DNA of 64,000 bases, taken from contig NZ_LJHQ01000070.1 in the NCBI RefSeq assembly GCF_001295925.1, positions 1-64,000 on the forward strand, written 5' to 3'. The translations under genes were made by a program, and so were the position numbers. Numbering within the stretch: position 1 is the stretch's first letter; every line of letters starts with the position of its first letter. This DNA comes from Allobosea sp. AAP35. GTDB lineage: Bacteria; Pseudomonadota; Alphaproteobacteria; Rhizobiales; Beijerinckiaceae. Positions 8,581 through 40,209 of the stretch are shown piece by piece. The notes below the pieces were generated by a model. That model saw nothing but the letters and a program-made list of their open reading frames with translations. It was not told the DNA's origin and did not search any database.

Positions 8581-10890
8581 TCAGGCGGTCGTCGGCCGAG
8601 GGATGTCCCCGAGGCCTGTGGCCTTGGGCAGTCTGGCCAGCCCCTTACGCGCCGGGCGCACCGACGGCATGACCGCCTCGTCGGTGTGGACCGGGTCGAC
8701 CGGCGCAGGCGGCGCAAGAGGCGCAGGCGCGACCGGTGAGGTGCGGCGGAAGAGCAGGAAATAAAGCCCCCGCAGCATTTCGCGGGCGCCCCACAGCACG
8801 GTCCCGACACTGGCGGCGATGAGATTGCGCCTTACGTGACGAGAAGCGCGCATGTCCCGCACGGCCGTCAGATCGGCATAAGCGACGTCCGCCACCAGCC
8901 GGTAGCGCTCGGGGGCGCTGTCGACGAAGCTCAGACCGAGGATCCGCCCGCCCTCCCCGGCAACCGCCGTCGCAATCGCGACCTGCGCCTGCAGCACGGT
9001 CTTCGAGCGGACGCCGGCGACGCGGATCGTGGCACGATGGCGACCCGGTGACAGGTGCTGGGCCTGGGCGCCGGCGAGACGGACCTTCAGGCCACCGATC
9101 GAGGCGTCCAGCACCTGGACCGGAAGCCTGAGTCCCTCGACGAGCAGCTCGCCCGATCGGTTGGCCGAGAGACGCTGGATCTTGCGACGCTCGCGGCGTT
9201 CGGACACGACGCCCAACGCCAGGCCCGCCAATATCGTGTTGAACAGATTCCAGATGCCGACGACGAGCAGCAGGTTTCGCGACGCCGGCTCCTCGAAATA
9301 GCGCCAGGCCGTGAATGCCGTCGCGGCTGCCAGGATGCCGAAAATCGCATAGAACGGCCATGCCAGCGGCGAGAGGCCATCGTCGGACAGAGAATTGCCC
9401 TTTTGCGTGACGTTGAACTTCGGCGCACGGGGATTGGCCAGCACGCTGAAGATCGCACCCGACAGGTACACCGACTGGATGTACTCATACAATTCGGAGA
9501 CCCAAGGCCAGCGCAGGCGGCCATAGAGGTAGTTCTGGATCAACATCACGGCGACTATGTAGGTCAGCGTGTAGGCGACGAACTCCTGCGGGGAAGCGTT
9601 GTAGATTTCGAGATTGAAGACGATGAAGAACAGCGGCGAGATCATGAAGATCAGGCGCGATAGCGGAAACAGCCAAAACAGGTTGCTGGAGGCGTAACAG
9701 AGCTTCTGCGGCAGGGAGAGACCGCGCTTGAACAGCGGGTTCTTCAGCATGAAGATCTGCAGCATGCCCCGGCACCACCGCGAGCGCTGGCCGATGAAGG
9801 ATTCGAACGTTTCGGGCTGCAGGCCGGCGATCAGCGGCTTCTCGACGTAAAGGCTCTTCCAGCCGCGCGAGTGGAGTTCGAGCGCAGACTCGCAATCTTC
9901 TGTGATCGTGACGCCGGCAAAGCCGCCCACCTCGTCGAGCGCCTCGCGGCGCAGCACCGCAGCCGAGCCACAGAAAAACGCGGCATTCCAGCTGTCGAGG
10001 CCCTTCTGGATCGCACCGTAGAACATTTCGTTCTCGGACGGCATGCTCTTGAAGGTCTGCAGGTTGCGCTCGAGCGGATCCGCGTTGATGAAGAAATGTG
10101 GCGTCTGGACCAGGAAGAGGCGCCGATCCCCAGCAAAGAAACCGACTGTTTCCCGAAGGAAATCACGGGCGGGAACGTGATCGGCATCGAAGACGACAAC
10201 GAGCTCTCCATCGGAATGGGCAAGTCCGTTGTTGAGATTGCCTGCCTTGGCGTGGAGATTGCGCTCGCGGGTCAGATAGGTGACGTCGAGATCGGCACAC
10301 AGCTGCTGCATCGAGGCCCGCCGCTGGCGAGCGGCCGCGGCCGCTGACGGATCGATGCTGTAGACCTTCTCGTCCGTGCCGCCATCGTCGAGGAGATAGA
10401 CCCGCAGCTTCTCCGCGGGATAGTCGAGACCCTTGATCGCCGCGAGCGTCGAGGCCACCAGATCCCGCTCTTCGTTGTAGGACGGCAGAAAGACATCGAC
10501 GGTGGGAAGCTCGTCGTCCGGTTGCTGCGGCGCACGCCCCCGGGTGATCGGCTGGGCGTTCACGAACAGGCCCAGTGCGAGCATCGAGATGCAGTAGAGT
10601 TCCGCGATCAGCAACAGCACTCCGGGCAGAAAATCCGCGGGCTGACTCGGCGATGGAACCGTCTCGGTGACGCGCCAATAAACATAGCGCACCACGATGA
10701 CGGATCCCAACGCCAAGAAGATATGCCGAAACAGGCCGGTGAGCTTGAGAACCGAAACCAGAATCATCAAACCCAGAGCAACGATGCTGAAGGCGAAATG
10801 CAGCTTGAGTCCGATTGGTTGCGTGACGAAGAGAATGAACGCCAACGCGACGGCTATCCACGTCATCCTGGCCATAAACTGGCTCATCAT
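8581..10890 (-). CDS. bcsA: Cellulose synthase catalytic subunit BcsA (GT2 + PilZ)
   Basis: A 769-residue inner-membrane glycosyltransferase that polymerises UDP-glucose into cellulose. Transmembrane helices flank a family 2 glycosyltransferase domain with DDG (168-170), DAD (235-237), TED (330-332) and the QxxRW motif QRSRW (368-372). A PilZ domain follows, with the arginine-rich RRERRKIQR (565-573) and DASIGG (595-600) needed to bind cyclic di-GMP. The start is set at the ATG at 10890, 6 bases after an AAAGGG ribosome site; an upstream in-frame codon at 10917 lacks one. First gene of the operon, preceded by an unusually AT-rich leader. Confidence 0.95.
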   Translation of the reverse strand: MMSQFMARMTWIAVALAFILFVTQPIGLKLHFAFSIVALGLMILVSVLKLTGLFRHIFLALGSVIVVRYVYWRVTETVPSPSQPADFLPGVLLLIAELYCISMLALGLFVNAQPITRGRAPQQPDDELPTVDVFLPSYNEERDLVASTLAAIKGLDYPAEKLRVYLLDDGGTDEKVYSIDPSAAAAARQRRASMQQLCADLDVTYLTRERNLHAKAGNLNNGLAHSDGELVVVFDADHVPARDFLRETVGFFAGDRRLFLVQTPHFFINADPLERNLQTFKSMPSENEMFYGAIQKGLDSWNAAFFCGSAAVLRREALDEVGGFAGVTITEDCESALELHSRGWKSLYVEKPLIAGLQPETFESFIGQRSRWCRGMLQIFMLKNPLFKRGLSLPQKLCYASSNLFWLFPLSRLIFMISPLFFIVFNLEIYNASPQEFVAYTLTYIVAVMLIQNYLYGRLRWPWVSELYEYIQSVYLSGAIFSVLANPRAPKFNVTQKGNSLSDDGLSPLAWPFYAIFGILAAATAFTAWRYFEEPASRNLLLVVGIWNLFNTILAGLALGVVSERRERRKIQRLSANRSGELLVEGLRLPVQVLDASIGGLKVRLAGAQAQHLSPGRHRATIRVAGVRSKTVLQAQVAIATAVAGEGGRILGLSFVDSAPERYRLVADVAYADLTAVRDMRASRHVRRNLIAASVGTVLWGAREMLRGLYFLLFRRTSPVAPAPLAPPAPVDPVHTDEAVMPSVRPARKGLARLPKATGLGDIPRPTTA

Positions 10891-10902
10891 TACACCCTTT
10901 AC

Positions 10903-11725
10903 GCCACGACTACTCACAACGGCGACAACCTATCACCGCGGTAACGAATCTGAAAGGATAAAGATCGAGCAGATCGCCGCATCGTTAATTGACTGGACAA
11001 TGTCAAAACAATAAAAATCACGAAATAAACAAAAAATATTTCAAGATGACCCGAAAGAAAAGACAATGCTCAAATAAAGATCCTGCGTAAAAATTGAAGT
11101 TAGATTGATGCATAATATCGCACAATTTGACCCTACGTCGCCACCAAATACTGCTCTCGACTCCAGCTGAGTCAAGCACAAGAAAATTAAAACCAACAGA
11201 AAATTTGATGTATATCGCGGATACTAACGATAACCCTCTCCTCCACCGAACGTTAGCCTGCCGCGAAACTGCCCAAATTATTGGCGCACGGCCCTATGTC
11301 TGGACGATCCTTGGGCGCCTGATCGCGCCGTCAACGGGGTTCTTGCTGGCAACGTCGGGACTGTGCCATCGACCGCGACCAACGCACCCGTGCCGGGCAC
11401 ATCAATTCCCCGACAGCGCGTGCATGACCGGACTGCGGATGTCGCCCAGTGTAGGCACTGCGACGGCCGGCGAGGGATCGGGTCACGGTCCGCGCGGTCC
11501 TGCGATAGGCAGCTTGCACCGAGGGCAAGCCATCGGGATCAACGACAGGATCGCAGCCTGCGTGCCCATGCCAAGGCCCTGATCGTGCGTGAGCGGCCTC
11601 GCGTTCGCGAACACGGCGTGAGCGACGCGGCATGCGAAGCGACGCAGCGTCGCTCACTCAACCCCAGATGGTCCTGATCGACGGCTTAGCTTTCCGGTAA
11701 TTGAACGCGTGTATCGTCGATTGCG
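10903..11725. other. Intergenic region with AT-rich leader of the cellulose operon
   Basis: No convincing gene. Bases 10930-11290 are much richer in A+T than the neighbours, with several A/T runs near 11009-11045. The part next to bcsA contains a TTGACA on the minus strand but no matching -10 box at 16-18 bases. The half next to the GGDEF gene returns to high GC and shows nothing recognisable. Confidence 0.5.
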
Positions 11726-12697: not shown

Positions 12698-13313
12698 CGC
12701 CGGTCCGAGGATCACGAGGCCCAGGCAAGGCGCGTATCGTCGTGCCCGACGTGATAGAAGCGGTGTCTGGGCCCCTATGGCCGCCGTTTTGACTTGAAGC
12801 CGATCGTGGCAAGTCGGGGTCGAGCGGCAAAAGTCCGCAAGCATCGAGGCCAGGACTTGGCTCGTTCCGGCCTCCGCGAGCTCGGCCCACTTCCGATTGC
12901 TGGTCAGCGACCGACGAAGGCGGCGACGGCGGCTATGGCCAGCGCGATCACCCGGATCCCCTGCGCCATCAAGACATGCGGAGAAAAACGACCGCGAGCG
13001 CAAGCCGGCTGCCGCGTCGATCAGGGCGCAGGGCGTCGACGAACGTGAAAAGGGCATCGAAGGACCGACCCATCCAGTCGGTCGATACCGCGAGACAGGA
13101 AAGCGCTTCTGCGCCACTGCGCCTCCAAGCGCGGAATGGGCCGGCCCCTCCCCGCGGAAGGCTGTATTGGCCGGCGGCCTCGTGGGCCGCATCAACCGGT
13201 CGAACACATGGCCGCAATGCAGCACTGCCGCGGTTCAACGAAAGCCGCGCCGACGGCGAGCCGCCGCACCTCCCGCTCCGTTGTCGCGGCCCTGGCCAAA
13301 GTGACCGTTGGCG
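12698..13313. other. Gene-poor gap
   Basis: About 0.6 kb of high-GC sequence with no recognisable gene. One very short minus-strand candidate is listed separately. Confidence 0.4.
12904..12969 (-). CDS. Candidate 21-residue hydrophobic peptide
   Basis: A minus-strand frame encodes MAQGIRVIALAIAAVAAFVG plus arginine, a possible single membrane helix. Its ATG overlaps the stop of a preceding minus-strand frame (TGATG) that ends in LALAVVFLRMS. Such coupling is suggestive, but neither frame has a clear ribosome site and both are short, so this may be chance. Confidence 0.2.
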   Translation of the reverse strand: MAQGIRVIALAIAAVAAFVGR

Positions 13314-13628
13314 TCACGAAACACCCGCCCCGCCGGTCTCGGCGCCGAGGCCGACACTTCGCTCGATCTGATCGATTGTGACAATGGACATGGCAGTCCC
13401 GGCAGCGGCAGCGATGTCACCGATCAGTTGGGTCGCCTCGGCGACGCTGATGGCGTTGATGCCGCGATGGGCGTTTATGGCGATCATGGCCATTCGGGTT
13501 GACGCAAAATAGGCGGCCGCGGTCTGTGGAATGACATCGGCTTTTATTCTGGCTTCGTTTGACCTGTGCTCATCGAGAATGCGCCAGAGCGCATCTCGGC
13601 ACAGATCCATCGCCCCGTCCTTGTCCAC
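13314..13628 (-). CDS. Hypothetical small protein (104 aa)
   Basis: Not recognised. The frame starts with GTG at 13628, preceded by GAGGA seven bases upstream, a good ribosome site. The product has balanced composition, with a predicted helical stretch (DALWRILDEHRSNEARIKAD) and a more hydrophobic middle (ASTRMAMIAINAHRGINAIS). No cysteine pair, transmembrane helix or catalytic motif stands out. It is isolated in the gene-poor region, and the ribosome site is the main reason to call it a gene. Confidence 0.45.
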   Translation of the reverse strand: MDKDGAMDLCRDALWRILDEHRSNEARIKADVIPQTAAAYFASTRMAMIAINAHRGINAISVAEATQLIGDIAAAAGTAMSIVTIDQIERSVGLGAETGGAGVS

Positions 13629-14078
13629 TCAATATTCCTCAGCTGATCCGATTTGCCGGCACTCGTTCCGTGACCGATAAGCTGAATGGTGTGGCTGGGC
13701 ATTGAGCTATCTCAATCGCGGCCCAGCAGCACGCCGCAATGGGGGCGGCAGGTCGTGTCCCGATACGGAGCGTCCCTGCGGGCGGTCATCGGCGATGTTT
13801 GGGCCGCGAACGCAAACCCTGACCCCAGAGATACCGATGACGGGAGACGAACCTTAGCGGGCTGCGGGAGAGAAGCCCCCACGCCGATCCGCTGCACGAG
13901 ACGATCAAGTTGCCGCGCAGCGACTGATGGATCCCGAAGTCGGCAGAATGACCGGCGCCGGCTTCAGCGCGAAGAGCCCGGGGCGACTGACGGAGCGTGA
14001 ACGCTGTAGTGAACGCGACTGCGAGCCGGGCGCGGTCACTGTCGAGCGCACGACCATTGGCCGCCTATGCCGATGACC
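13629..14078. other. Gap with no gene seen
   Basis: About 450 bases with only poor-quality open frames on both strands. Nothing recognisable. Confidence 0.4.
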
Positions 14079-14539: not shown

Positions 14540-15028
14540 GAGCCGAAGTCTACCGGTGCAGCCCCCGGCCTGAGGCTGAGCGGCGACACGCCGTCTTGCC
14601 CGTGCGGAGGGCACCGCCGTCATCCGGCGACCCTTCGGCAAGCAGACCGTCGCCGTGAAAAAGAGGGCGCGAGGGAAGAGGTCACAAGGGGCGAGCGAAG
14701 AGGACAAGAGCAGAAAGCGCAAGGAGCTGTGGATCGGCTGACCCGCGACGACGAGAAGGCAAGACTGCGACATGGTGAAGCCTCCAAGGGGCCGCAATAG
14801 CTCATGTCAGCAAATTGCGCTTCGCACCGCCGACGAGGCCTTCGAACACCGGCCACCGGGCGCGACCACCACCAGCGCCGAACGCGCTCGCCGGCCCCAG
14901 ATCGCGACGACAACGGAAACCGGCAACAAATCGACCAGACAAAAAATGGATTGGACACGGTCACGATCTGCCAAGGTTTGGCCGCTAGTCTGCTCGGCCA
15001 TCGACGTCGTCAAAGGGATTTTGGACCA
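14540..15028. other. Gap with no confident gene
   Basis: About 490 bases. A minus-strand ATG at 14773 follows a strong GGAGG site, but the frame behind it degrades into arginine-rich sequence overlapping the gene at 14321. A lysine/arginine-rich plus-strand stretch near 14656-14742 is equally doubtful. Confidence 0.35.
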
Positions 15029-15979
15029 GTGGCAGCACGAGCAGCAGACGTTCATCGCCCTTCCAACGATGATGGACAAGAGCCCGATGGCTTGAAATCC
15101 GACTGGATCGACCTTGGCCGGGCGGAAGCCGTTCATTGTCTCTCAGGGGACGATCAGTCGGGAGATTGGGTCCAGCGCGGCTCCTTTCCCGCCCTCGTCG
15201 ATATCCCTTACCTGCAGGAGTTCAGCTACGATTTCGCGACGGGGATCCTGGATCTGGTCTTCGAAGACGATGAAGGTGGGCCTCGCTGGACCCTGTCGCG
15301 GGTCGCGACACAGCTTGACAACGGTACCCCTGTGAACGCTCCACCCGGCCTCTCGCAGGAAACGCAACAGGAGATCGACGAGGGACTGAGCTACTGGTGC
15401 GGATCGTTGGGTCTCATGATCATCACCGAGGCACAAAACCACCATATCGCGTTGCGAGGTCACCTCGGCTCCCTTTTTGAGCCGCAGCGTCCCGTTCCGC
15501 TTCACGTTCTGCCGCATCTGGCGTCCGTGGATCTTATCAATGCGACCATCACGCTCTCGAACGGCGAGGTGATCTATGGCGTCCAGGCACGCCTCGGCTC
15601 CTCGCACAACCCCAATCGGACCCCGGAAGGTGACACGCTCATCGCCACGATCGAGAAGTCGAAGATCCTATGGGCGCACCTGAACTGGCTCTCGCGGACG
15701 TACAACCGCGATCCGCTGCCAAAGCGTGCGCCAACGGACCATTACGACTCCGAGATCTATCTGGTTGAAGACCTCAAACTTCCACGCGATCCCAAGACGA
15801 ATGGCGACAGAACCTTCCGGGACGCCCGCGCGCTCTACAAAAAGATCTCCCGGCTGGAGCTCTGGGACGACGTCGATTCGATCCTGGATCGGTTTAGATC
15901 GGCCGCTGTACAGCGGGACAAGGCGCTTGCCCCGCCACCACGTCCGATCACGATCGACAAGCGCGGCTTCGACCGGTAG
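15029..15979 (+). CDS. Hypothetical protein, unknown family (316 aa)
   Basis: I do not recognise this protein. The GTG at 15029 is chosen as start because AAAGGG lies about 11 bases upstream and the longer upstream frame is arginine-rich and unnatural; the start remains uncertain. The product is acidic to neutral and soluble, with no signal peptide or membrane helix. It has a region rich in beta-like segments (ASVDLINATITLSNGEVIYG) and a charged helical C-terminus (ALYKKISRLELWDDVDSILD). It stands alone in the accessory region, about 0.9 kb before the recombinase module and on the same strand; no operon link is visible. Confidence 0.65.
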   Translation: MAARAADVHRPSNDDGQEPDGLKSDWIDLGRAEAVHCLSGDDQSGDWVQRGSFPALVDIPYLQEFSYDFATGILDLVFEDDEGGPRWTLSRVATQLDNGTPVNAPPGLSQETQQEIDEGLSYWCGSLGLMIITEAQNHHIALRGHLGSLFEPQRPVPLHVLPHLASVDLINATITLSNGEVIYGVQARLGSSHNPNRTPEGDTLIATIEKSKILWAHLNWLSRTYNRDPLPKRAPTDHYDSEIYLVEDLKLPRDPKTNGDRTFRDARALYKKISRLELWDDVDSILDRFRSAAVQRDKALAPPPRPITIDKRGFDR

Positions 15980-16913: not shown

Positions 16914-17807
16914 ATGACCGTTCACGACCAACAGAACACCAAGAAGGGGCGCCGGCATCAGCGGACGACGCACCAATTCGAAGACCAGATCGGCCACATC
17001 ACCCTGTTCGTTCTCCAGCGGGTCGCCGACGGCCTCCCCGGCCTGCCCGGCCATCCCAAAAGGACGGGACATGTCGCACTCTCGGTCATCGCCGAGGAAC
17101 TGGGGGTCCCGGTCGGCAACCTGACCCATCCCAGGCTCAGCGCGCACCTGAAGGACCTCGCGGCCACCTATGGCGTCGAAACCCCTCAGCAGGCGACGCT
17201 CGCCAAGGCGCTCACCGTCATCGAGACGACCTACGACCAGGAGCCGGTCCCCTTTCGGGGCCGCAACCCCCACCTGTCGGCGATCCGTCTCGCGACCGGT
17301 GTCGCGGTGACGGTCCTCAAGACGGCCGACGCGCAGGCTCTGCTCAGGGCCCTCGCCAAGCGCAACGGCACGGTGTCGCCGAAGGTCGATCACCAGGCCG
17401 AGATCGAGGCCCTGGAGGCATACGGCGCCAGACTGCGGAAGGCTGGGCTGCCGCTACCGGCGATGCCGGGCCGCGACGGTCCCGGCATCACCGTGATCGC
17501 CCGCGCCATCGCGATCTCGAACGATCGCTTCGCACGTCCCCATCTCGCCACAGCCCTTGCCCGGCTGGCGCGGGAGCTGGGCGTGGCGTCGACCGTCACC
17601 GTCGCGTCCGACGCAGCGCGCTTCACGGCCTTCGTCGACGCGATGATCGCGGCCCGCAAGCCCGTGCCCCACGGACGCAAGGGGATCGCCTACCGAACGA
17701 TCGGCCAGCAGGCGGGAATCGTCGGCCATCGCATCATCCACAGTCACGCCCTGCAGTCGCAGCTGACGCGCTGGATCCACAAGGTCGGCGTGGAGACGAC
17801 GCGATGA
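16914..17807 (+). CDS. Repeat protein with four tandem HTH-like units; partner of the recombinase-like gene
   Basis: A 297-residue basic protein of no family known to me. Four units of about 45 residues can be aligned by eye at roughly 43-88, 110-152, 178-224 and 246-293. Each has a Gly-Arg or Lys-Arg lead, a helix-turn-helix-like core and a closing helix; examples are VIAEELGVPVGNLTHPRLSA, VIARAIAISNDRFARPHLAT and TIGQQAGIVGHRIIHSHALQ. The second unit is most diverged. Such a string of helix-turn-helix units would suit binding a long or repeated DNA site. The ATG at 16914 is chosen because the open frame upstream is compositionally implausible; its ribosome site is weak. The stop overlaps the next start (ATGA), so the two products probably act together. 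Confidence 0.7.
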   Translation: MTVHDQQNTKKGRRHQRTTHQFEDQIGHITLFVLQRVADGLPGLPGHPKRTGHVALSVIAEELGVPVGNLTHPRLSAHLKDLAATYGVETPQQATLAKALTVIETTYDQEPVPFRGRNPHLSAIRLATGVAVTVLKTADAQALLRALAKRNGTVSPKVDHQAEIEALEAYGARLRKAGLPLPAMPGRDGPGITVIARAIAISNDRFARPHLATALARLARELGVASTVTVASDAARFTAFVDAMIAARKPVPHGRKGIAYRTIGQQAGIVGHRIIHSHALQSQLTRWIHKVGVETTR

Positions 17808-20173
17808 ACGCGCTCGAGGCCAAGCCGACGTCCGGGCGCAGCGATCGTCCCCATGACAAGCTGATCAAGAAGGTCAAGCTCCTCATCCGCGAAAAGTCGT
17901 CCCCCAAGCGCGGCGGACCGATCCCCTCACGCGACGTCATCGCCGAGGCCGAGGACGTCGCCGGGATGGCGCGCGAGGCCATCGCCGATGCGATCGACTA
18001 TGCAGCGATCAACGCGATGCTGCGCCACAACCGGCCAAACGATCTCCGCGCGCCGGCCTGCGTCGCGCTGCTCGTCGAGGCGGCACGGACGCTGGGCCTC
18101 GCCCCCGTCGCGCGGCCCCGCCCGACGCTCGCCGATCTGCAGCGCACCGTGCGCGCGCATCCCGAGGCAGCAGAGCTCGAGCCCGCGCTCGCCTTCGTCC
18201 GGACGCAGGCGCTGATGACGAACGCGACCCCGATCGCGCCGCTCTTCACGCCCCAGCTCGCGGGCCTGATGCCGTCGCTGCTCGCCCGCAGGGAAAGCGA
18301 GGTCGCGCCCGAGTCCATGGCGAAGCTGTTTCGGCTGGCGACGGACATGGAACGGAGCGCCGACCTGCCGCCCTACTTCGCCGGAGCGCTCAGGGCCGTG
18401 ATGGACCAAAACGGATGGACGAGCGCCAGACTGGCGAAGATTGCGGGTGTCGACGAGGCGACGGTTCGCCAGTGGTGCCGCGGGTCGGAGCCGCGCAGCC
18501 ACCAGCACGCGATCTGCAAAGCCTTGGAAACCGCTCTCTCAGTCCCGCCCGGCACCCTGCTCGACCGGATGAGCACAACGGCGATCCGCATGAACAGCTG
18601 CAGCGTCCTCACCGACGACGTCCGCGACGAACTCGATGCGCATTCCATTCCGATCCGCGCCCTGGGCGACGATTGGAACGGCCTCGACGATCATGAGAAG
18701 CGCTGGCGTGTCGCGACCCTGAAGAAGCTAACGCTCACGGGCGTGCCCTATCGGGACTATGCCAGGAGCGATCATCACGATGAACTGCCTCCCTTCTGCA
18801 ATCCGGACTTCGACCGGGAGTTCGAAGCCCTGCGGATCTTCAAGGAGGCCAAGGAGACCGACCTGTTCGACGACGATCCGTTTGAGATCATGACGGTCGC
18901 CGGCAAAAGCCATTTCAAGAATGGTGGCATCTGGCGGGAGACGACCTCAGTCCTGCAGCACAAAAACGCCATCCGCATTCTGCGCGCACTGCGCGCCGAA
19001 CTGCCGCCCACCCTGCAGGCTCAGCTCGACCGCCAAGGGCTCGGCGCTCTGGCGAGCGCCAAGCTCGTCGTCGCCGGAGCGAAAGCGATCGCCCGCCGGC
19101 GCTGTCGGCGTCTCGCCCGTTCCGGCTTCTTCGCCGACAGCCGCAATCCGGCTCCCAAGGATGGACTGGTGTTCGCCCATGGCGATGTCAGCCGCCTCAT
19201 CGTCATCGCCGGCTACCTCAACCCCGCGACCGGCTATCTTTTCAAGAACCCGCCTGTGCTGAGGTGCCTCGACGGCTTCATCGATCAGGCCTGGATCGAC
19301 GGGGCGAGGGCTGACTGGCCGGCGGTGGCAGTCGCGGAACGCAAGCTCATGACGAAGGCGGCCGGGAAGATCGCCAGGCGCATTTACGCCGTCCGTGATC
19401 CCTGGCTGCCGATCATGCCGTTGCTGGAGCTCCCTGCCCCCCTCGAGCCGATCTACCGCGCGCTCGACCGGATGGAGGCCGATCGCCCCCCTTTCGCCGC
19501 TTCCCCCGTCGGGATGGCCCGGCACGATCGCGACCACTGCCTGTTGCGCCTCTGGGTACACACCAAGCTGCGCCGCTCCTGCCTGGTGCAGCTGACCTAC
19601 CGACCCGACAACACCGGGATGCTCCGCTTCACGGCCGATGGCGGGGCGCTGCTCGTGATCCCCCAGGAGCTGTTCAAGAATGCCGGATCCAGTGCCTTGC
19701 CTGAGGGAGGCCAGCCGATCGAATTCGTGATCGAGCCGGCGGAGAGGCGGTTGCTTCGGATCCTGCGTCGGTGGGTTGTGGGCGAGGGTCACTCGCGCTC
19801 CCTCCTGTGCCATGACCACAACAATCACTTCCTCTTCCCCGGAGACAAGGGCGGCGCGCTCAATGACGCAAGCGTCCATCGTATCTGCATGGCCTTCAGC
19901 ACGCTGTACCTCGTGGCGCTGCCCTGGCGCCCCGGTGGCATCCCGGGTGTCCTGCCCTTCGGCGCGCACGCCATGCGGGATCTCGCCGGCACTCACGTGA
20001 TCAAGGTCAGTGGCCTGAAGGACGACGCGGCGCTGGCTCTCCTCGATACGGTGGAGACCATCACCAAGGCCTACTCGCGCTTCACCAGCGCCGACAAGAC
20101 GCGGCGCAGTACGCGGCAGATCCGCGCCTCGTTGCCTCCCGACCTTTTCGCAGACGACGATGACGTCGACTGA
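17804..20173 (+). CDS. HTH plus divergent tyrosine-recombinase-like protein (789 aa)
   Basis: A large protein with an XRE-type helix-turn-helix near 195-250 (core SARLAKIAGVDEATVRQWCR), a long uncharacterised middle, and a C-terminal region that matches a tyrosine recombinase core. The box I-like arginine is R590 in KLRRSCLVQLTY, a hairpin lysine is K625, the HxxR of box II is H722-R725 in GAHAMRDLAGTHVI, and the nucleophile is Y757 in TKAYSRF. R725 to Y757 is 32 residues, the same spacing as in XerD. The second His/Trp is replaced by D748. Typical integrases have 300-450 residues, so this is about twice as long. It is coupled by ATGA overlap to the HTH-repeat gene. Recombinase activity is inferred; a regulatory protein on the same fold is possible. 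Confidence 0.7.
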   Translation: MNALEAKPTSGRSDRPHDKLIKKVKLLIREKSSPKRGGPIPSRDVIAEAEDVAGMAREAIADAIDYAAINAMLRHNRPNDLRAPACVALLVEAARTLGLAPVARPRPTLADLQRTVRAHPEAAELEPALAFVRTQALMTNATPIAPLFTPQLAGLMPSLLARRESEVAPESMAKLFRLATDMERSADLPPYFAGALRAVMDQNGWTSARLAKIAGVDEATVRQWCRGSEPRSHQHAICKALETALSVPPGTLLDRMSTTAIRMNSCSVLTDDVRDELDAHSIPIRALGDDWNGLDDHEKRWRVATLKKLTLTGVPYRDYARSDHHDELPPFCNPDFDREFEALRIFKEAKETDLFDDDPFEIMTVAGKSHFKNGGIWRETTSVLQHKNAIRILRALRAELPPTLQAQLDRQGLGALASAKLVVAGAKAIARRRCRRLARSGFFADSRNPAPKDGLVFAHGDVSRLIVIAGYLNPATGYLFKNPPVLRCLDGFIDQAWIDGARADWPAVAVAERKLMTKAAGKIARRIYAVRDPWLPIMPLLELPAPLEPIYRALDRMEADRPPFAASPVGMARHDRDHCLLRLWVHTKLRRSCLVQLTYRPDNTGMLRFTADGGALLVIPQELFKNAGSSALPEGGQPIEFVIEPAERRLLRILRRWVVGEGHSRSLLCHDHNNHFLFPGDKGGALNDASVHRICMAFSTLYLVALPWRPGGIPGVLPFGAHAMRDLAGTHVIKVSGLKDDAALALLDTVETITKAYSRFTSADKTRRSTRQIRASLPPDLFADDDDVD

Positions 20174-21273
20174 TCCGAAGGCGATCCGTGCGCTTGGCCA
20201 ACCGGACGCCGGTCCGAAAGGCCGAGCGGCTGGTCACGCGTGGCACCAAGGGGAGTGACGTCTTCCGCGCACTATGGGGCGAAGCCCACCGCGGCATGCT
20301 CGTACCGGACTTCGATCCGCAGGGGGGCGCGATGTCTGCAGTTGTGCCGCGATGGCCGTCGCGACAGCGGTGGGGGCGACGGCTCGTCCTGGCGTGTCGC
20401 GAAGCGCCGGCGGGTTGTTAGACGTCCGGCGCCGCGCCTGCGCCTGCGTGCTGCACAGAACCATGCGACCGCCCCGCGCCTTCCCCCCGGGCCCGGCGGT
20501 CGGCGGCCTCCTTGCGGCGCAGACGCATGAGCTCGCGTGGTCGCTCGCAAGTGTCCGGTCGGCCGGTCTTTGGGCGGCATCAACACCATCGTATGGCAAC
20601 GAACGCAGCCCGCGAACCGCGCGGTGGCGACACTGTCAGAGGGGCTCGGGAGGCGGACGCCGCGCCTCGCCGAGCCCGAGGGCCGGCGCTTCGTTCTCAT
20701 CACCCGTCCCGCCAGCCTGCCCGATCGCGATGCGAAAAACCCGCCGCCGGCAACATGTCGGCGTGCAGTCCGGTCGCGTTATCGAGATCCTCTCCCTAAA
20801 CGACGGCGAACAAGACCCTCATGTCGCGACCGCCACCGCATTCCCTTCGATACCGTCCAACGCTCTTGCGCGCCGGCGAGCCCGGCCCGATCGGCTCAGG
20901 CTTCGGCCCCGGCGTCGGTCAGCAGGCTGCATCGGCTGGACTCATCGAAACCCATCGCTGTGGAACGAGACCGGGGTGCGAAGCGCATCGGCGACAGCCC
21001 TCGCTTTCCAGCTGCCGCGATGGTCCTCAAGGGGCAGATGGCGCCAGCACTATGAGCGTCGCAACTGCCGCGGCGTGGGAGCCGCGGGGCCGGGTTGCTG
21101 CACGATCGGTCACTGCAGCAATCCGAGTCCTGTTAAGTCAAAACCCCCAGTTCGCCAAGGATCTGCTGGAGGTCGGACTCCAGGAGGGTCGAAAGCTACG
21201 TCAGATTAGCCGCGCGATTTCATCGCCAATAAAAGCCAAATGCAACAGAACTCCTAGAACAGTATGGGCAGCA
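20174..21273. other. Gap downstream of the recombinase module
   Basis: About 1.1 kb of very GC-rich sequence with long but low-quality open frames in several phases. No recognisable gene, tRNA or integration-site duplication was seen. Bases 21120-21260 are less GC-rich and lie just beyond the ugd stop. Confidence 0.4.
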
Positions 21274-33589: not shown

Positions 33590-35263
33590 TCAGCCCTGGA
33601 CAGCGTCAACGGCGACGCCGGTTGAAAACTCTCTGCCCGGCGCCGCCTCGATCAAGGCTCGGGTATATGCATGCGCCGGCGCGGAAAACACCTGCGCGGT
33701 CGCGCCCTGCTCGACGATCACGCCCTTTTCCATGACCACGATCCGGTCGCAGATCTGCGCCGCCACCCGCAGGTCATGGGTGATGAACAGGATCGCCAGG
33801 TTGAAGCGCTCCTGCACATCGGCCAGCAGCGCCAGCACCTGCTTCTGCACGGAGACATCGAGCGCCGAGACGGCCTCGTCCGCAATCAGGATCTCGGGCT
33901 CCATCGCGAGCGCACGCGCGATCGCGATGCGCTGGCGCTGGCCGCCGGAGAACTGGTGCGGGTAGCGTTCCAGCGCCTGGGGCTGCAGGCCGACCAACGC
34001 CATCAGGTCGCGCGCGCGCTGCATCGCGTCGCTCGCGCTCAGCCCGAAATTCATCGGCCCCTCGACGATCGATGCCCCGACGGTGCGGCGCGGGTTGAGC
34101 GAGCGGAACGGGTCCTGGAAGACGACCTGGATCTTGCGGCGATAGGGCCGCAGGCGGCGCTCCGTCAGCGTGGCGATGTCGATGTCGGGCACCAGGATCG
34201 CGCCCTCGCTCGGTGGCATCAGCCTGGCGATGCAGCGGGCGACCGTCGTCTTGCCGGAGCCGGATTCCCCGACGATGCCGACGGTTTCGCCGCGCCGAAC
34301 CTTGATCGCAACATCCTTGGCCGCATGCACGACGCGCGCTTTCGAAAACAGCGCCTTCGAGCTGTAGGTCTTGGCGAGCCCGACTGTTTCCAGCGCCAGC
34401 GGGCCGAGCGCCGGCTTGCGATCGGCGGGCTTGAGGCTTGGCACCGCCGCAATCAGCATCTGCGTGTAGGGGTGCTGAGGCCGGGTCAGGATGTCGACGG
34501 CCGGCCCCTGCTCGACGACGCGGCCCTTCTCCATCACCACGACGCGGTCGGCAATCTCGGCAACGACCCCGAAATCATGGGTGATGAACAGAACGCCTGT
34601 GCCGCGCCGGCTCTGCATGTCCTTGATGAGCCGGAGGATCTGCGCTTGCGTGGTGACGTCGAGCGCGGTGGTCGGCTCGTCGGCGATCAGCAGCGCGGGA
34701 TCGAGGATCAGCGCAGCGGCGATCATCACGCGCTGGCGCTGCCCGCCGGAGATCTGGTGCGGATAGGAGGCATGCATCCGCTCGGGCTCGGGCAGGCGCA
34801 TCGATTCCAGCATGGCGAGCACCTGGGAGCGCCGCTCGGTCGGGCCGAGATCGGTGTGAATGCGCAGCACCTCCTCGATCTGGTCGCCGATCGTCAGCAC
34901 CGGGTTGAGCGCCGTCATCGGCTCCTGGAAGATCATCGCCATGCGGTCGCCGCGCAGCGCCCGCAGACGCTGGGGCGTGGCCGTCAGCAGATCCTCGCCT
35001 TCGAGCTTGATCGCGCCCGCGATCGGCCTCAGCACCTTGGCGAGCAGGCCCATGACCGAGAAGGCGGTCACGGATTTGCCCGAGCCGGATTCGCCGACAA
35101 CGCAGACGATCTCGCCGGCCGCGACGCTGATCGAGACATCATCGACCGCCCTCGCCCGGTCGCCGCCACCGGGCAGCGCGATGCTCAGGCCGGATATCTC
35201 GAGGACGGGCGTCTGCGCGGCGCTCATCGGCTGACCATGGTTCACCGTCCCGCCATCGTTCAT
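33590..35263 (-). CDS. Peptide/oligopeptide ABC transporter, fused double ATPase (DppD-DppF type)
   Basis: A 557-residue protein carrying two complete ABC ATPase domains in tandem. Each has a Walker A ([13 protein letters not shown] and [13 protein letters not shown]), a signature ([11 protein letters not shown] and [11 protein letters not shown]) and a Walker B with [12 protein letters not shown] or [12 protein letters not shown]. It powers import through the two permeases encoded upstream. The single-chain arrangement is known from GsiA and YejF. The ATG at 35263 overlaps the upstream permease stop (ATGA). Confidence 0.93.
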
Positions 35264-39966: not shown

Positions 39967-40040
39967 GCGTCTTGTCCTCAAATGCTGGCTTGAATTAAAT
40001 CGTATGATTTAAATGGCTCTGGCCCTGACGATCCCCTCGC

Positions 40041-40148
40041 CGTCATTCCGGGCAAGCGAAGCGCAGACCCGGAATCCATCGTAATGCGCGACGGTGCCCT
40101 ATGATGGATTCCGGAGCTGCGCCGCTTCGCGGCTTGTCCGGAATGACG
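40041..40148. repeat. Imperfect palindromic intergenic repeat
   Basis: A left arm starting CGTCATTCCGGGCAAGCGAA and running to GGAATCCAT pairs with a right arm that begins ATGGATTCCGG and ends TTGTCCGGAATGACG. The long imperfect hairpin separates the two M20 genes. It belongs to the same general style of alphaproteobacterial dyad as the repeat near 30.1 kb but has a different core. Confidence 0.75.
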
Positions 40149-40209
40149 GCGCGGGTGATGACGAACAAACGGAGATTGACGATATCGGGCTTCATGTCGA
40201 GCCGGGCCA

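Follow-up and report, generated by a model that had tools for sequence, protein, structure and literature searches.

The window analysed here is a stretch of 64,000 nt from Allobosea sp. AAP35 (assembly GCF_001295925.1, contig NZ_LJHQ01000070.1, positions 1-64,000, forward strand). It carries two overlapping genes, P0001 and P0002, predicted to encode a helix-turn-helix (HTH) repeat protein and a large protein with an XRE domain and a tyrosine recombinase core. We consider it probable (roughly 0.6) that P0001 and P0002 together form a single site-specific tyrosine recombinase, split into two translationally coupled parts: a subunit bearing the HTH array and a subunit with the XRE and catalytic domains. 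It would integrate and excise the island carrying it. This reading is based on sequence comparison, a structural model and analogy with described systems. Below, genomes are labelled G and loci L followed by a number (e.g., L211 in genome G820). The features of the pair are as follows.

16914..17807, + strand: P0001, HTH-repeat subunit with four tandem repeats of ~70 aa (297 aa)
16965..17171, + strand: P0001 repeat 1 (aa 18-86)
17172..17366, + strand: P0001 repeat 2 (aa 87-151), the weakest
17367..17579, + strand: P0001 repeat 3 (aa 152-222), the strongest
17580..17786, + strand: P0001 repeat 4 (aa 223-291)
17804..20173, + strand: P0002, XRE plus tyrosine recombinase (789 aa), ATGA overlap with P0001
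18368..18580, + strand: XRE/Cro-type HTH of P0002 (aa 189-259)
18797..19393, + strand: putative core-binding region of P0002 (aa ~332-530); the alignment with several Cre chains begins at about residue 332 of the model (root-mean-square deviation 7-9 Å, hence approximate)
19397..20128, + strand: catalytic domain of P0002 (aa ~532-775), from residue conservation and predicted fold
19571-19573, + strand: P0002 R590
19676-19678, + strand: P0002 K625
19967-19969, + strand: P0002 H722
19976-19978, + strand: P0002 R725
20045-20047, + strand: P0002 D748
20072-20074, + strand: P0002 Y757, the predicted nucleophile

P0002 and its recombinase family

The first-pass annotation had described a two-gene module with an ATGA overlap, an HTH-repeat protein followed by an oversized tyrosine-recombinase-like protein. 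Both open reading frames (ORFs) prove to be real coding genes as described: they are intact, use the codons of the host, and the codon-position GC signal starts near the proposed start. In Pfam a weak XRE domain is the sole match of P0002. At E values up to 5, P0001 has no Pfam match (DUF6262 included) and neither protein matches a known arm-binding family such as Arm-DNA-bind. PADLOC, PHROGs and NCBIfam likewise give a name to the XRE part of P0002 alone. Across Pfam, NCBIfam, PHROGs and PADLOC there was no whole-protein match and none above a curated cut-off; the matches were to XRE domains and, weakly, to integrases, the best Pfam integrase match to a P0002 relative having E 0.036. Among the open-access papers listed in literature searches, no title or abstract opening described the P0002 family.

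The family to which P0002 belongs is large and unnamed and combines XRE and tyrosine recombinase parts; P0002 is one of its divergent members. By plain search, 9 of 297 genomes in the order have a relative, the genome of the window included. A profile of 12 aligned sequences (alignment A1) found 355 related stretches in GTDB contigs, the best 80 of which were used, and five loci in viral contigs; no match was found in phage records. The same profile matched 8 of 199 genomes of the bacterial family, own included (three of the matches are very short or marginal and one is a 191-position fragment), and in the class a 54-row profile gave matches in 2 of 289 genomes, again counting that of the window. 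In the genus, 61 of 67 genomes have no P0002 match at E 0.001. The genus matches are the gene of the window, a fused protein (L211 in G820), three ordinary members of ~790 aa (G504, G804 and G809) and one truncated copy (G501). Tree placements of the window P0002 and of L023 were set aside, their branches being saturated.

The residues R590, K625, H722, R725 and Y757, named as the catalytic core in the first-pass annotation, are invariant together with D748 in 54/54 rows of A2, an alignment of the window protein with 53 of the 72 full-length relatives listed. Two single-residue exceptions occur in A1, Gln for His in L023 and Gln for the second Arg in L018. The catalytic R-K-H-R and the nucleophile Y stand in the order expected for the tyrosine recombinase superfamily. 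D748 lies 23 residues after R725 and nine before Y757, and there is no His or Trp between the second Arg and the Tyr. We take the 725-748-757 spacing to be the same as in Cre and XerD, with Asp standing in the His/Trp place. The AlphaFold model of P0002 has a mean predicted local distance difference test score (pLDDT) of 65, with most of residues 460-735 at about 70-90. XerH and Cre are the best structural matches of the predicted core, and the XRE part of the model matches the P22 c2 repressor. A catalytic-core fold, the lack of which had been named in advance as grounds for giving up the recombinase assignment, is thus predicted for P0002. By its residues and its predicted catalytic-core fold P0002 is a tyrosine recombinase, with strand cleavage and exchange as its predicted activities.

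The HTH array and a fused congener protein

P0001 can be divided by eye into four repeats of 65-71 aa. In leave-one-out profile comparisons the scores of repeats 3, 1, 4 and 2 were equalled by 0, 1, 3 and 7 of 500 shuffles, respectively. A profile of the N-terminal region of the P0002 family, built from the 55 of 82 members that fill that region in the alignment, picks out P0001 at E 4.6e-6, whereas the top-scoring of 200 shuffles reached 0.052. Across every ORF in the loci compared, P0001 was the sole non-recombinase ORF with more than one such domain.

The search of the 67 genus genomes brought to light L211, a single 1,035-aa protein of the congener G820 in which four repeats are followed by an XRE domain and a recombinase core. 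L211 was found through P0002 and not through P0001. It retains R, K, H, R, D and Y. The L211 repeat profile scores P0001 at 41.2 bits, with 0/1,000 shuffles as high, and among 2,559 ORFs it ranks P0001 first after L211 itself (E 4e-11). The reverse comparison, P0001 repeats against L211, gave 18.2 bits (0/1,000 shuffles), and the single N-terminal copy of L023 gave 19.1 bits (0/1,000 shuffles). The fusion in G820 rules out that P0001 and P0002 are chance neighbours, and because the congener has them fused, the two would be halves of one machine.

In plain searches P0001 matched 16 of 295 genomes of the order at E up to 0.01, own included, the other 15 all lying above 0.001. It matched 3 of 347 genomes of the bacterial family, own included; the other two matches are marginal, one (6e-4) with an internal stop and one (9e-4) in a 504-aa frame. 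No match was found in plasmids, phages or viral contigs. Across the order, family, plasmid, phage and viral contig searches a separate P0001 gene was seen only in the genome of the window. In the fetched loci of P0002 relatives no P0001-like partner gene adjoins, and the relatives carry at most one recognisable N-terminal copy of the related domain, the fusion L211 excepted. The expectation that homologues of the two genes always occur together as a pair was thus not borne out.

Genomic setting of the relatives

In their setting the relatives resemble island integrases, some having a tRNA gene close by and defence genes being frequent neighbours. Of 97 loci, 8 have a tRNA gene no more than 350 bp from the recombinase gene, compared with 0.8-1.1 expected, a count in which the 350-bp limit was chosen after looking, a few of the 97 loci are duplicates (e.g., L013/L046) and L082 and L108 are related. 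In 8/8 of these loci the 3' end of the tRNA faces the recombinase gene. No tRNA was found close to L211-L215. The strongest case is that of L041 (Azospirillum, tRNA-Lys) and L101 (AAP38, tRNA-Pro), which share 89.9% identity over 1,358 bp. The identity includes about 295 bp past the stop codon and stops just before the two different tRNA genes. A counter-example comes from another genome, where a 30.9-kb island (G244:C12:106789-137687; loci L180 and L021) lies between two 15-bp copies of a tRNA-Ser 3' end, and its homology with G511 and G516 begins at the base of the distal tRNA-Ser copy. At the tRNA end, where G244 has the family gene (L021), the homologous islands have just ~0.36 kb (G511) and ~1.3 kb (G516), too little to hold it. 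The far end of the G244 island encodes its own Arm-DNA-bind_3/Phage_integrase protein, and for this reason the island was rejected as evidence that the family gene acts as integrase.

Homology between relatives often breaks sharply at the recombinase stop codon, which suggests recombination at that point. In 110 locus pairs sharing at least 85% identity across the gene (the pairs are not independent), homology ends within 10 bp of the recombinase stop codon in 55, continues for more than 100 bp in 50 and falls between in five. The pairs leave out the duplicate L016 and ten loci that are truncated, frameshifted, fused or divergent. Palindromes upstream of some relatives (e.g., L047 and L073) were considered as attachment (att) sites and rejected, being inconsistent across the 47 relatives scanned. 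Two family recombinase genes lie ~23-24 kb apart on one contig in Caulobacter BIN4 (L065 and L082) and in C. radicis (L068 and L088); the C. radicis pair points outward.

Neighbouring genes, up to six ORFs per side, were clustered into 281 clusters (354 proteins), and 177 representatives were scanned. Their PADLOC matches include SoFic, PD-Lambda-1, JetA, GajB, DpdF, AbiEi, PsyrT and type II methyltransferases, among the models listed for the two halves of the representatives (25 of 101 and 25 of 268 matching at E 1e-8); the tally describes these neighbours and does not measure enrichment. Further Pfam matches are HipA, SLATT, Mrr, resolvases and integrases, alongside ordinary metabolic genes. 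In 22 of 98 loci, which include near-duplicates but not the window, a Fic-type protein occurs within six ORFs of the recombinase gene on one side; the Fic domain was confirmed in four of these loci. An HNH_5 protein follows L211.

These neighbours raise the alternative that the recombinase fold provides or controls an anti-phage function in defence islands instead of moving them. The many PADLOC matches, the recurrent Fic-type gene, the SNF2 helicase and WYL domains beside L213 and L214, and the place of a family gene as cargo of another island in G244 all fit such a role. Conservation of the strand-exchange residues and a tRNA 3'-end arrangement typical of integrases argue against it. Because the adjoining defence systems are of many unrelated kinds, there is no fixed defence partner. 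We regard a defence protein as quite unlikely.

Another alternative is dimer resolution of plasmids or islands in the manner of Xer or Cre, not integration. RepC, RepB/ParB and ParA-type genes lie just upstream of the recombinase in L047, L050, L067 and L077, and the best-scoring solved folds are those of XerH and Cre. This gene cluster is confined to 4 of 98 loci, and both the tRNA adjacency and the two similar genes ending at different tRNAs speak against resolution, which we consider highly improbable. In L047, L050 and L067 a ~30-bp imperfect inverted repeat just ahead of the start codon marks the point where homology to other loci begins.

The window copy, related systems and a possible mechanism

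The window pair lies between two relics of insertion sequences (IS); a third sequence is found next to an IS-type gene in another genome.

12906..13263, strand not assigned: sequence found next to an IS110-type transposase gene in G494
13751..14047, + strand: relic of a Mutator/IS256-type transposase gene, upstream of the module; ~73-74% identity to the start of congener transposase genes (the L152 ORF matches Transposase_mut)
20598..21066, - strand: downstream remnant of an IS4/5-type transposase gene, with 65% identity at the DNA level to a G491 transposase ORF matching DDE_Tnp_1 and DUF4096

The accessory character ascribed to the module is supported. A 15.7-kb query from the window was compared with 31 genomes of the genus, its own among them; in the matches listed, the left flank (gene 8581-10917) and ugd are never adjacent. 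Among these matches a single long one on the right-hand side has sequence past its end (G490, L149), and its left neighbour there shows no relation to the window. Plasmids gave no near-DNA match to 12.8-21.3 kb of the window. P0003 (ORF 14804-15979, + strand), which shows a coding-type GC pattern from about 15160, was rejected as a third gene of the module; it has no relative in 118 other family genomes. A 17-nt inverted repeat (94%; 13449-13465 and 20574-20590) brackets the stretch holding the pair and is probably chance or an IS end; in the scan for att-type palindromes the window gave none above shuffles. Elsewhere the window has a ~270-bp direct repeat (69%) at 33697-34766 and a palindromic sequence of ~120 bp at 40034-40155.

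The following results weigh against a two-piece island integrase. For the window copy, there is no tRNA in the 64 kb, no convincing direct or att repeat pair around the module and no empty site among the matches listed; the earlier suggestion that this copy is a minimal mobile element thus found no junction, att repeat or empty site in its favour. In the G244 island the family gene is cargo. The Fic gene, which often comes next after the recombinase gene, has homology breaks of this kind at its own stop, so the breaks at the stop codon indicate modular exchange and are no proof of an att site. As for the proteins, Asp at the His/Trp position is unusual for the tyrosine recombinase fold, and a PDB profile search by sequence returned no recombinase. 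The single-sequence fold of P0001 has pLDDT 38, too poor for a structure search. The split pair has no close homologue usable for a selection test. The N-terminus of P0002 does not register as a repeat, with 4.9 bits in the repeat comparison (equalled by 16/1,000 shuffles) and 0.7 bits with the family N-terminal profile. Because of this, and because P0002 has about 95 residues ahead of its XRE domain that are absent from L211, the window pair is not simply L211 cut once.

The IS relics, the lack of a tRNA in the window and of convincing att repeats, and the scarcity of P0002 matches in the genus would also suit a former island integrase that has become immobile in a decayed, IS-riddled stretch and is kept, or is decaying, mainly as an XRE-type regulator. 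Against such a domesticated recombinase stand two intact ORFs with native codon usage and the full set of catalytic residues, and we think it unlikely, if the most plausible of the alternatives. The window copy may be stranded among IS relics.

Tyrosine integrases normally bear their extra DNA-binding domain within one chain. Several described systems resemble the window pair in part. GInts carry ginABCD, co-transcribed tyrosine recombinases plus a small HLH protein, with variable cargo; all four gin genes are needed for excision and integration, and the islands have imperfect direct repeats at both ends with a short AT-rich 3' end (Bardaji et al., 2017; PMC5385486). As proposed for the module, islands recombine through tyrosine recombinase activity together with a partner protein. 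GInts, as presented there, require GinA-C plus GinD, whereas the window pair joins a single recombinase to a four-repeat HTH protein, with no further recombinase gene adjoining. Strand-biased circularizing elements (SEs) and Tn554 (TnpA/B/C) encode recombinases together with a small accessory protein, Srap or TnpC, and coupling by gene overlap has been suggested for SEs (PMC10214605). The small partner, GinD or Srap, is reported as essential in the GInt and SE systems (PMC5385486; PMC10214605). These elements have two recombinases each (plus Tfp in SEs), in contrast to the single one of the window, and the available part of that account describes no four-repeat partner or XRE domain. The window pair is outside the definitions of GInts and Tn554, with their three or two recombinases.

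The bipartite modules (BIMs) of Cupriavidus are, like the window pair, a two-gene unit, in which a tyrosine recombinase (Famint19) is joined by a conserved partner of unknown function (Famint45, SMC-domain) (PMC3414803). The listing of this partner as an SMC-domain protein and the beta-proteobacterial host would set them apart. Recombinases with an arm-binding domain add a DNA-binding module to the core-binding and catalytic pair, an arrangement described as typical of mobile-element integrases (PMC8138268). In comparison, the extra module of the window is an HTH array on a separate polypeptide, accompanied by an XRE domain, and Asp replaces the fifth pentad residue.

A GInt/SE-like element is present in the same bacterial family (L198, G460:C38, 3440-9161), with a RecD-like helicase after the operon. 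Two genes of the operon match Phage_integrase, one clearly (E 2e-14) and one weakly (5e-4), and a third looks recombinase-like, though by eye only. The operon also encodes a protein of 189 aa and a DUF6262-like protein of 139 aa, whose E of 5e-5 falls short of the cut-off. The P0001 repeat profile matches this last protein, which has one domain copy, at E 9.9e-5, compared with 0.28 for the best of 200 P0002 shuffles in the same search. This hints at a common origin of the P0001 repeat and the DUF6262-like domain.

If the pair is a two-piece integrase, the repeats of P0001 may recognise several short arm-type sites lined up close to the point of crossover, and the XRE domain may bind the promoter of the module or the att region and hold expression low. 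P0002 would cleave and rejoin DNA through Y757, so that the island carrying it is integrated or excised. Physical contact between P0001 and P0002 is presumed, and translational coupling would keep the two halves in ratio. Both the binding of arm sites by the array and the autoregulatory part given to XRE are inferred from arm-binding integrases (PMC8138268) and the GInt and SE systems, as far as the available parts of those sources go.

With a split form bearing an HTH array and a fused form, this genus provides a natural experiment on the link between accessory DNA binding and catalysis. The unnamed family as a whole occurs widely in Alphaproteobacteria, where its genes lie among defence genes of many kinds. 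We tentatively propose, as a possibility short of an even chance, that it is, in Alphaproteobacteria, an undescribed class of integrases by which defence cargo is mobilised at tRNA 3' ends. Within it, the fused congener protein and the window pair would make up a subclass with arm-site recognition by four HTH repeats, placed on a separate subunit in the window, and target choice might be changed by swapping repeats or the entire subunit. If the family proteins are indeed the integrases, they would account for the travel of part of the defence repertoire in Alphaproteobacteria and would serve annotators as a marker gene for entries at present labelled 'hypothetical protein'.

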